Source: Hydrogenothermaceae bacterium (GTDB taxonomy: Bacteria > Aquificota > Aquificia > Aquificales > Hydrogenothermaceae). From it: a stretch of 64,000 bases of DNA. Below the pieces are notes generated by a model. It was not told the DNA's origin and searched no databases. It worked only from the letters and a program-made list of their open reading frames with translations. The stretch is taken from NCBI GenBank assembly GCA_026418455.1, contig JAOABH010000004.1, forward strand, positions 558,001-622,000, given 5' to 3'. Positions 28,008 through 31,444 of this stretch are shown piece by piece (position 1 is the first letter of the stretch; every line of letters begins with the position of its first letter). The translations under genes were made by a program, and so were the position numbers.

Positions 28008-28027
28008 GGAGCCTGTCTTAGGGCTCC
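28008..28027. terminator. Hairpin between the convergent htpX and GGDEF-EAL genes
   Basis: GGAGCC (28008-28013) pairs with GGCTCC (28022-28027) across an 8-base loop in the 35-base gap between two convergent stops. T-rich sequence follows on the plus side (ATTTATAAT). It may serve both directions. Confidence 0.55.
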
Positions 28028-28029
28028 AT

Positions 28030-29397
28030 TTATAATAACTTCAAAAACTCTTCAACTTCCATAGGTTTATAAAAGTAGTATCCCTGGCAGTAATCAATTC
28101 CCAAATCAACACATCTTTTATAATCCTCGTGGGTCTCCACATACTCCGCAACCGTCTTTATGTTAAGTAATTTAGATATGTTAACTATGCCCTTTACTAT
28201 CGCTTCCATTTTTTGATTACTGTTCATCTGCTTTATCAGGTGCCCATCTATTTTTAGAAAATCAATATCAAACTGGTGAAGATATCTCAAAGATGTGTAG
28301 CCGGAACCAAAATCATCAATAGCAAACTTCACCTTTGATTCTCTACCAAAATCTATCAAAGCTTTAGCATCATCTACATTTTCAAAAAGGGAGTTTTCTG
28401 TAATCTCAATTACAAAATCCACAGATTTTTTACCGCTTATGCTACTTAGAATAGCAACATCTTCTTTTAAATCTGTAAATTTTTCATCTTTGTTTATACT
28501 TTTATTGACGAAGAAAATCAGATTACTCCTAAAATTAATGTCTTCTATGTAAGACAACATCTCTTTTTCAAGCTTATCTATTAAACCAAAATAAAGGGCA
28601 GATTCTAAAAAGTAAGCGGGAGTGTATATATCTCCATCTACGTTTAATCTGATTAAAAACTCTCCACCCACAATATCCCTAGAATTTACCTGGATTATAG
28701 GCTGAATAAAAGGAATAACTCCGTTTTCTCTCGAAAGAGCTTTTAGAATAAGATTTCTGCCGTTTATAAGATTTTCAGATTTTCTTTGTAAAGAAGCATC
28801 GTAGAATGTTATACTGTTTTTACCCCTCTGTTTAGATTCAGCAAGTGCATTTAAAGATTCCTCAAAAACCTGATTAAAGTTTTTACACTGTTTATTGAAA
28901 GATATGCCTATGGAAGCTGTAGAAGTGATAAAACTATCTCCTACTATAAATCTAAAATCTTCTATTGCCTTTTTTATATTGTTAGATATCTTTATAAGAT
29001 CTTCTTCATCTATTCCATAAACTGCCACAGCAAATTCATCCACTCCTATCCTAGCTTGGATAGATGTATCTGGTGTTGATTTCACTATAATATTGGATAT
29101 CTCTTTAAGGAAAATATCTCCTATATCTTGTCCGTAAAAACCATTTATATATTTAAAATTATCCAAATCTAACACTAAAACACCATAACTTACTTTTTCC
29201 TGTTCACATTTCCTGTGGAGATTTTTAAGTTGAGCTATAAAGCCATCTCTGTTGAATAAGCCAGTAAGGTAATCTTTCAGGAGCCTTTCGTTATATTGAG
29301 ATTCAAGAGCTTTGTAATCTCCGAGGATGTAATCATACTTTTTTGTTATCTCTATAAGCATATTTTTAAGTATTCTTTCTTTTATCCTGTAGTCCAT
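28030..29397 (-). CDS. GGDEF-EAL protein, c-di-GMP phosphodiesterase likely
   Basis: A 455-residue protein without membrane or sensor domain. Residues about 40-205 form a GGDEF domain whose signature is altered to GVDEF (118-122). Residues about 210-455 form an EAL domain: EAL is EFL (246-248), but FVNKS, EITEN, DDFGSGYTSL, KIDG, AEYVE and QGYYFYKP are all kept. The expected activity is therefore breakdown of c-di-GMP, with the GGDEF part perhaps regulatory. It overlaps the FIST gene by 32 bases, which suggests that FIST is its sensor in trans. Confidence 0.9.
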   Translation of the reverse strand: MDYRIKERILKNMLIEITKKYDYILGDYKALESQYNERLLKDYLTGLFNRDGFIAQLKNLHRKCEQEKVSYGVLVLDLDNFKYINGFYGQDIGDIFLKEISNIIVKSTPDTSIQARIGVDEFAVAVYGIDEEDLIKISNNIKKAIEDFRFIVGDSFITSTASIGISFNKQCKNFNQVFEESLNALAESKQRGKNSITFYDASLQRKSENLINGRNLILKALSRENGVIPFIQPIIQVNSRDIVGGEFLIRLNVDGDIYTPAYFLESALYFGLIDKLEKEMLSYIEDINFRSNLIFFVNKSINKDEKFTDLKEDVAILSSISGKKSVDFVIEITENSLFENVDDAKALIDFGRESKVKFAIDDFGSGYTSLRYLHQFDIDFLKIDGHLIKQMNSNQKMEAIVKGIVNISKLLNIKTVAEYVETHEDYKRCVDLGIDYCQGYYFYKPMEVEEFLKLL

Positions 29398-30571
29398 CTG
29401 ATTCCTCTAATCCGACTAATATTGAAGTTTCATTAAAAAACTCTCCTGGTTTACCAAACCTATCAGGGCCTATCTCTCCAAAGGTCAAAAAACCTACAGT
29501 GTTAAAATCTCTCAATGTATCACTGTAGATTTCTTGTTCCGAATCTTCTCTTTTATCCGTTAAAAGAACATAATTTCTGGCAGTGCAACTTATATTCAGA
29601 ATCAGTTCCGGTTTCCTTTTACTATAAGTAAGCATACTGTAAAACTCTTTAGCTCTCGTTTTAACATCTTTAAGTATATCCTCACTGTCACCGGTTGATA
29701 ACTTTATCAATGAACCTTCCCTTATAAGACCATAAAATTTCACACATTTCTCATTTTTATCAAATTCATTAAAAGTTCTAATAGAAGTAACATACCTTCT
29801 ACTTTCATCTATCAACAGCAGTGGAAACTCCCAGAGAATTTCAGAAGTAGTTTCCTGAGTGAGATCCTCTGGTTTTAACTCTGTATTTGAAAGTAGATTA
29901 AACAGAAAATATTCAACATTCATCCCATCTATCTCATACAGCCTGTTATCTCTTGCTTTTGTTATCCGGTAAGTAGTTCCGACAGGTATAAATCCAAAAG
30001 ACAAGGTATTATAAGAAATTACATTATGAAGTTTTACTAAAATAATCCCATCTTCAAGAACCTTTTCATTTTCTGAAATATAGGTAGTAAAACCTTTGAG
30101 ATTAGAAGATGCAACACCTCCGTAGATCCTAACTTTTGGGTATCCATCAGATTTAAATATCCTATCTAAGAGTCTGTTAGTTTGATTGTTTTGAGCTGTG
30201 GAAAATAAAAGATATGTGGAAGAATCTTCTTTCAAAAAATTCTGGACAATTTCTCTGAGATAATCTATATCCATTGTTGAAAAGTTTTCTACTGTATAAA
30301 CTTCAAAACTACCATTTCTCTCAAATTTGATAGCAAAACCACCAAAATGATCATAACCGATCCTCTTACCTTCCATCACAGCAACAGATGAAAGAGATAT
30401 CCAAGTTGTATCTCCTAATGTATTTTTTAAAAGTTCTAAGAACACTCTATGGGAATAAATGTAAGGCGGTAAAAATAGAATAAATAAATCAGGAGAGATA
30501 TCATTTAAACAATTCCTTAATTTCTCTATATATAAAACAGGGTCTTTTTCAAAGAAGGTAACAACCTTCAC
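29366..30571 (-). CDS. FIST domain sensory protein
   Basis: A 401-residue soluble protein that reads as FIST_N (to about residue 215) plus FIST_C. Typical FIST blocks: GGFAIKF, VRIYGGVASSN, DGIILVKL, LSFGFIPVG, and at the end FNTVGFLTFGEIGP, FFNETSILVG. FIST is a ligand-sensing domain usually fused to kinases or cyclases; here it stands alone. The start is GTG with AGGTGGAG upstream. The end overlaps the GGDEF-EAL gene. The ligand is unknown. Confidence 0.85.
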   Translation of the reverse strand: MKVVTFFEKDPVLYIEKLRNCLNDISPDLFILFLPPYIYSHRVFLELLKNTLGDTTWISLSSVAVMEGKRIGYDHFGGFAIKFERNGSFEVYTVENFSTMDIDYLREIVQNFLKEDSSTYLLFSTAQNNQTNRLLDRIFKSDGYPKVRIYGGVASSNLKGFTTYISENEKVLEDGIILVKLHNVISYNTLSFGFIPVGTTYRITKARDNRLYEIDGMNVEYFLFNLLSNTELKPEDLTQETTSEILWEFPLLLIDESRRYVTSIRTFNEFDKNEKCVKFYGLIREGSLIKLSTGDSEDILKDVKTRAKEFYSMLTYSKRKPELILNISCTARNYVLLTDKREDSEQEIYSDTLRDFNTVGFLTFGEIGPDRFGKPGEFFNETSILVGLEESDGLQDKRKNT

Positions 30572-30619: not shown

Positions 30620-31444
30620 CTATTTTATCAATTTTTTAAGATCAGATATAGTTTGGTGGGTATTATGGCACTTTGAACAGTTATTAGCTGATATATAGTT
30701 TAAATTTTTATAAACCTCTTCCTTATTCTTTGATTGTAGAGCTTTTGATAGGGCTTGAAGTTTTTCTTCTACATCTTTACCATAGTAGATTTCTTCTGAA
30801 AGTTTGTTATTATGGCATTCGGAACAGCTTTCTGCTACTGCTTTAAATCTCTTTATGAAGTTATTCCCTTCTACTTGAGCTTTATCCGATTTTCCATCTT
30901 CAAGGTATATTCTCATCTTTTTCATAGAATCTGCCATCTTTTTCATATGATCTTCAAATTCATTAGATGTTTTTGTTACAGGATCCTCTATATTTATCAT
31001 ACTGAAGGAAGGGTAGTGATAGATAAGCTTTGTTGTAATTTTATATTTTTGGTGACACTGGGCACAGGATTTTCCTACAGCATCTGCATAAGTTTTGATG
31101 TTGTTGATATCTTTATTTTGAACTGCTTTCAATAGTGCTTCTATTTCATCTTTTTTAAGTCCTTTATCAAACTCTGGAACCATCTTTCCTATATTTAGAT
31201 AGTTATCTCTTAAAATTTTTGCCCATTTTTCTGCATTTTTCCAATCATTTTCCTGTATATTAGTAAACACTCCCGTGAAAGCCGTTGACATAGCGTACAT
31301 AGAATTTAAAAACTCAAACTTTTTAGAATTAGGTGGATAGTATTTACCAACATCTTTCGGTGGTGTTTCAAGTTTTATGGTTTCACCGTTAGAAGATAAA
31401 GATAAAGTTGTTAAAACAGCTGTTAAAATCGCTAACTTTTTCAT
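30620..31444 (-). CDS. Periplasmic trihaem c-type cytochrome
   Basis: A 274-residue protein with a signal peptide (1 to about 20) and three haem motifs: CAQCH (127-131), CSECH (207-211) and CSKCH (256-260). The first half has the helical layout and C-terminal CxxCH of a cytochrome c'-like four-helix bundle, and the second half seems a degenerate repeat of it (SMKKMRIYLEDGKSDKAQVEGNNF before CSECH). It would carry electrons in the periplasm; partner unknown. It stands alone with a GGGGT ribosome site. Confidence 0.85.
   Translation of the reverse strand: MKKLAILTAVLTTLSLSSNGETIKLETPPKDVGKYYPPNSKKFEFLNSMYAMSTAFTGVFTNIQENDWKNAEKWAKILRDNYLNIGKMVPEFDKGLKKDEIEALLKAVQNKDINNIKTYADAVGKSCAQCHQKYKITTKLIYHYPSFSMINIEDPVTKTSNEFEDHMKKMADSMKKMRIYLEDGKSDKAQVEGNNFIKRFKAVAESCSECHNNKLSEEIYYGKDVEEKLQALSKALQSKNKEEVYKNLNYISANNCSKCHNTHQTISDLKKLIK

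Follow-up and report, generated by a model that had tools for sequence, protein, structure and literature searches.

In CdpA of Vibrio cholerae, a GGDEF domain lies between the FIST and EAL domains. CdpA unites FIST-FIST_C and EAL in one haem-inhibited polypeptide with c-di-GMP phosphodiesterase output (PMC8846402), and thereby resembles in its domains and probable output the locus described here, where they are distributed over two genes. Stand-alone FIST proteins beside a sensorless signalling enzyme occur in the NosP systems (P. aeruginosa NosP-NahK, Legionella NosP-NahK-NarR and Burkholderia NosP-NosK-NosR), with the partner enzyme under NosP control and c-di-GMP metabolism or biofilm as output. 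The effect of NosP on c-di-GMP is in most cases relayed by a kinase (PMC12570481, PMC11237717); in the systems named a histidine kinase intervenes, mostly together with a response regulator, whereas the FIST protein of our locus is paired with the c-di-GMP enzyme itself. Direct action on a GGDEF(-EAL) enzyme by a small stand-alone sensor is described for H-NOX with DGC-PDE partners (Shewanella woodyi SwH-NOX/SwDGC and Legionella Hnox1/Lpg1057; PMC8846402), but the haem-binding H-NOX fold is unrelated to FIST. On the enzyme side, Caulobacter CC3396 (PdeA) combines a degenerate GGDEF domain (GEDEF) with an intact EAL domain, and binding of GTP by the GEDEF domain activates the EAL phosphodiesterase (PMC4823724); in contrast to our locus no FIST partner is described for CC3396, and GTP binding by the GVDEF domain reported below is only putative. 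Little is known of what FIST domains bind and how the signal is passed on (PMC8846402).

The locus was noticed in a first-pass annotation of 64,000 nucleotides of Hydrogenothermaceae DNA (the window), which set it against a background of FIST domains usually fused to signalling domains. This context was incomplete, as stand-alone FIST genes beside signalling genes are common, for example in NosP operons (PMC12570481, PMC12997753).

Anatomy of the gene pair

The FIST gene is the upstream member of the pair and the GGDEF-EAL gene the second (Table 1). Pfam analysis of the FIST protein gave scores above the curated cut-offs for both FIST (PF08495; 4.1e-24, 86.0 bits against 23.2) and FIST_C (PF10442; 6.5e-16, 59.1 bits against 28.5), and GGDEF (1.9e-29) and EAL (1.1e-41) were found above their curated cut-offs in the enzyme. 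No further sensor domain was detected by Pfam in either protein, and the only N-terminal extra of the enzyme is a helix of 37 residues, in agreement with its initial description as sensorless. Similarly, open reading frame coordinates and Pfam bear out a stand-alone two-domain FIST protein whose gene overlaps that of the enzyme by 32 bases. With FIST, GGDEF and EAL on two reading frames, the locus does not encode a single-chain fusion of the CdpA type. Most relatives have an overlap of 4 bp; the decayed sister copy described below, with about 32 bp, resembles the window. The start codons of both genes line up with those of the relatives. A promoter scan gave no more matches than expected by chance.

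A cytochrome c'-like gene with three CXXCH motifs (30620-31444) precedes the FIST gene by 48 bases, likewise on the minus strand. It was attractive as a third member of the unit, since cytochrome c' binds NO, and was ruled out because it is intact in the sister species with the decayed pair and is not found upstream of the pair in other genera.

Table 1. Features of the FIST/GGDEF-EAL locus in window coordinates.
Feature	Position	Strand	Basis
FIST sensor protein gene (FIST + FIST_C, 401 aa, GTG start)	29366..30571	-	Pfam + AlphaFold2
FIST Cys329, aligned with reactive Cys326 of human FBXO22	29585..29587	-	
FIST Glu366, aligned with FBXO22 Glu362	29474..29476	-	
Overlap of FIST gene and enzyme gene (32 bases)	29366..29397	-	
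GGDEF-EAL c-di-GMP enzyme gene, probable phosphodiesterase (455 aa, ATG start)	28030..29397	-	Pfam; orthologues adjoining FIST in 9 further genomes
N-terminal helix, enzyme residues 3-39, common to FIST partners; proposed docking/coupling element	29281..29391	-	AlphaFold2 + profile A3
GGDEF domain, enzyme residues 42-194, without RxxD I-site	28816..29274	-	Pfam + motif comparison
GVDEF, altered GGDEF signature	29032..29046	-	Sequence + motif comparison
EAL domain, enzyme residues 218-445, catalytic residues intact	28063..28746	-	Pfam + residue check
Terminator-like palindrome, putative operon end, between convergent htpX-like gene and enzyme gene	28008..28027	.	Weak: 1 found, 1.4 expected by chance

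Linkage and joint decay of FIST and its partner

Almost all of the best non-self matches of the window's GGDEF-EAL protein are encoded beside a FIST homologue. When the neighbourhood was searched by tBLASTn, a FIST gene directly followed by that of the GGDEF-EAL enzyme was detected in nine further Hydrogenothermaceae genomes (G003, G020, G027, G030, G034, G010, G011, G032 and G017), with frameshifts in both genes of the G032 pair and a FIST gene split by contig ends in G017. More distant relatives carry a FIST gene followed by a GGDEF-only gene, again mostly with a 4-base overlap. A census of 136 Aquificota genomes, tallied by hand, located 64 FIST places, 58 of them with readable context. FIST was linked to GGDEF/EAL at 51 of these 58 loci, either in trans with a GGDEF or GGDEF-EAL gene directly after FIST (36 loci, including broken copies and two with a GGDEF protein of 600 aa) or in cis as a fusion, partly broken, to GGDEF or GGDEF-EAL (15 loci); no GGDEF neighbour was present at the other seven. 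Assuming that about 2% of genes encode GGDEF, the chance of 36 trans loci in 43 is near 1e-55, a figure which excludes random placement and nothing more, as the loci are related by descent. A search for the same pair in other genomes had been proposed at the outset, with rare adjacency in relatives as the refuting outcome; the pair proved recurrent and the claim withstood this test.

Some FIST loci showed peculiarities of their own. At four pair loci (L090, L099, L100 and L101) the FIST gene is split or frameshifted, reflecting decay, sequencing error or a true split, and at L100 it seems to be divided into one gene for FIST_N and another for FIST_C, overlapping by 4 bases. Divergent FIST genes of family f4 (L095, 3246-4364; L098, 3243-4361; L096, 3062-4096; L097, 2849-3937) adjoin in some cases a 600-aa GGDEF protein and in others response-regulator-like genes, and the L097 protein is without Cys329. 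Stand-alone FIST genes of about 414 aa and no signalling neighbour were seen in genus g9 (L106-L109).

A separate scan of 84,980 species genomes was performed with one short FIST motif and for this reason saw only the FIST clade of the window's type; it returned 12 loci from three phyla, and the pair was present at 12 of 12. They include Thermodesulfobacteriaceae and Thermodesulfobacterium as well as the Campylobacterota Nitratiruptor, Sulfuricurvum, Hydrogenimonas and Nautiliaceae. As for NosP, FIST is thus encoded next to a signalling protein, here a c-di-GMP enzyme, in three phyla. The genes upstream of the pair vary between genera, and the pair itself is therefore the unit. Comparison of the FIST tree with the partner tree, the latter built from the first 205 residues, led to a Pearson correlation of 0.87 between the distance matrices (best of 500 permutations 0.27). 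In both trees the Thermodesulfobacteriaceae pair groups with the Hydrogenothermaceae pairs and T. hveragerdense is placed near the Aquificota pairs, which suggests joint transfer of FIST and partner genes from phylum to phylum.

A single functional unit predicts that both genes are lost jointly. The sister species G001, the other member of the window's genus, shows the same gene order of dapF, thpR, cytochrome, FIST, enzyme, htpX and dnaK, and both genes of its pair are pseudogenes (L068, 6116-7909), with FIST in at least six frames, the enzyme in three and the EAL part missing; the flanking genes are intact at 62-92% identity, among them cytochrome, htpX, dnaK and dapF at 73-92%. In G032, where both pair genes are frameshifted, the enzyme shares 94-96% identity with its G020 counterpart, compared to 98-99% for the neighbouring genes.

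Conserved adjacency can also reflect co-regulation without contact, and small genomes commonly contain co-transcribed genes that overlap. Nevertheless, fusions of the same domains, joint decay, congruent cross-phylum trees and a helix specific to FIST partners (see below) make it very improbable that FIST is merely co-transcribed and acts elsewhere without touching the enzyme. Together with the adjacency in three phyla, the same observations strongly support the two-protein unit of the first-pass annotation, which had proposed a switch of this kind and missed the precedents NosP and CdpA. Because the pair recurs in three phyla, FIST and enzyme very probably act as one switch, a view well supported by genome comparison. 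We read the locus as the already known FIST/NosP control of c-di-GMP metabolism in a direct form that dispenses with a kinase.

Enzyme output and the N-terminal helix

Residues 116-122 of the enzyme read RIGVDEF, confirming the altered signature described before, and differ from the intact GG(D/E)EF signature of active diguanylate cyclases. All eight metal-binding or catalytic EAL positions checked (E246, N298, E331, D361, D362, K382, E418 and Q438) are invariant among nine orthologues, as expected for an EAL phosphodiesterase, and the initial remark that nearly all EAL residues are kept holds for each of them. In the motif comparison GVDEF was confined to the window, and EAL-type relatives mostly showed GGDEF; SGDSF/SGDAF was observed in G011/G017, GGDKF in the decayed sister copy and GEDEF at L123. 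Judged by these motifs, the signatures of G011 and G017 decayed separately from that of the window. As relatives mostly keep GGDEF and the other degenerate cases arose separately, GVDEF is a late local change and not a feature of the FIST module as a whole.

With the EAL positions invariant, the I-site absent and the motif decayed to GVDEF, the window's enzyme is best read as a phosphodiesterase whose GGDEF domain has a regulatory role, similar to CC3396, and its output is most likely c-di-GMP hydrolysis by the EAL domain. An enzyme that still makes c-di-GMP or is bifunctional, with FIST switching the balance as in Legionella NosP-NahK-NarR, where NarR is bifunctional (PMC11237717), would be in line with the GGDEF motif kept in relatives and with the many GGDEF-only partners. 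We regard it as distinctly unlikely given GVDEF without an I-site, the preserved EAL residues and the degenerate motifs also found in G011/G017 and at L123. The GGDEF-only partners of the more distant relatives carry intact GGDEF and RxxD motifs and are probably synthases. The original suggestion that FIST controls c-di-GMP breakdown fits the window's branch, with its intact EAL domain, degenerate GGDEF domain and missing I-site, but is too narrow for a module with many GGDEF-only partners. A literature search revealed no published work on c-di-GMP in Sulfurihydrogenibium.

About 40 residues precede the GGDEF domain of the enzyme, and AlphaFold2 predicted a continuous long helix from residue 3 to residue 39 (mean pLDDT 88.8, with lower values around residues 21-40); its consensus is MRxxIKxxLLxNLLxExTxKYD. 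When 61 genomes were searched with a profile of this helix (A3), 19 strong matches were obtained (E <= 5e-12), mostly from sequences used in building the profile, and 19 of 19 are encoded beside FIST; the next best match had an E-value of 0.017, and the helix was not found in other GGDEF proteins of these genomes. Seven of the matches (G001, G017, G032, G033, G034, G042 and G051) were not rows of the profile, some of them being close to rows. The helix is thus a probable contact site with FIST. Homology of the helix to the FIST-GGDEF linkers of fused proteins was not significant (hhalign P = 0.13), and the mode of coupling may therefore differ between the cis and trans forms.

Our preferred model, which we consider quite probable, is a co-translated sensor-effector pair with FIST docked on the enzyme helix and a signal-dependent output, most likely c-di-GMP hydrolysis. 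FIST would be the cytoplasmic sensory subunit bound to the long N-terminal helix of the enzyme, and a signal-dependent state of FIST would shift the register or dimerisation of this helix and thereby change the enzyme output. The EAL domain is expected to hydrolyse c-di-GMP, and the GVDEF domain may serve as a regulatory module, possibly GTP-binding, rather than as a cyclase. Control of the enzyme by a ligand, as well as its direction, are likewise presumed steps. The pair represents a minimal system of one sensor and one enzyme without a kinase, made of thermophile proteins, with natural fused and split versions and with one deletable helix as the candidate contact. Both the coupling step and the ligand would be directly testable in it.

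The conserved FIST site and candidate signals

The AlphaFold2 model of the FIST protein (pLDDT 89.9) matched best, among solved structures, the FIST domain of human FBXO22 (E 5.5e-10, TM 0.50-0.60, 9% identity), followed by cyanuric acid hydrolases and chorismatases, which have also been reported as fold relatives of the FBXO22 domain itself (PMC11185555). A single-protein sequence search found no solved relative, whereas a profile search found FBXO22. FBXO22 is the substrate receptor of a ubiquitin ligase and has a Cys/Glu site in common with the window's FIST protein. Conserved residues of the latter are Cys329, Arg332, Glu366 and Asn380. Two of them, Cys329 and Glu366, did not vary among 20 FISTs, and about 40 of 42 diverse FISTs retain each one; no other site was found to be shared family-wide.

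The NosP members of the FIST family bind haem and NO, with effects on c-di-GMP (PMC12570481, PMC8846402), and haem is an inhibitor of EAL activity in V. cholerae CdpA (PMC8846402). A NosP-type sensor, with haem bound to FIST and the EAL domain directly switched by NO or haem, is nevertheless unlikely here. The relationship to NosP is remote, with 28.6 bits in the NosP model (NCBIfam NF041558) against an equivalog cut-off of 450. No conserved histidine exists in the window's FIST subfamily (best column 8 of 20), and near N380 a His of the Proteobacterial stand-alone FISTs examined is replaced by Phe in the window's protein. In addition, NO-reductase genes do not track the pair; they were ruled out as a correlate by their comparable spread over pair-bearing (7 of 19) and other genomes (about 15 of 42), and none was found in the window's genome.

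The Cys329/Glu366 site points to a different chemistry, namely modification of Cys329, activated by Glu366, by an electrophile, an aldehyde or NO, to which the pair would respond. At the aligned Cys326 of FBXO22 aldehydes form a hemithioacetal, for which Glu362 is required, and some FIST genes belong to loci for alcohol/aldehyde oxidation, as in Leisingera and for Pseudomonas nosP, which is part of the ped cluster (PMC12997753). However, the FBXO22 chemistry is that of synthetic degraders, a ligand pocket was not seen in FBXO22 (PMC11185555), conservation of both residues could be structural and the window's neighbourhood gives no pointer to aldehyde metabolism. Taken by itself a reactive-cysteine sensor is unlikely, though on residue conservation and analogy it is a serious alternative to haem, and with this pair the haem/NO model gains a cysteine-based competitor. 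The most far-reaching version would be a kinase-free FIST/c-di-GMP module, spread among thermophiles and vent bacteria, whose FIST protein recognises an N-terminal helix dedicated to it and senses an electrophile (aldehyde, NO or other) via Cys329-Glu366 and not haem-bound NO; we consider it speculative and decidedly improbable. If true, a cysteine of the Cys329 type would be the ancestral FIST ligand site from bacteria to man.

Two plasmid loci illustrate further contexts of FIST genes. On a Leisingera plasmid (L134, 280-7011) FIST lies between genes for a response regulator and a PAS-domain protein, in a locus with a PQQ alcohol dehydrogenase and an aldehyde dehydrogenase. On an Aliiroseovarius plasmid (L136, 2638-4633) an adenylate/guanylate cyclase gene directly follows FIST, representing another output type for a stand-alone FIST protein.
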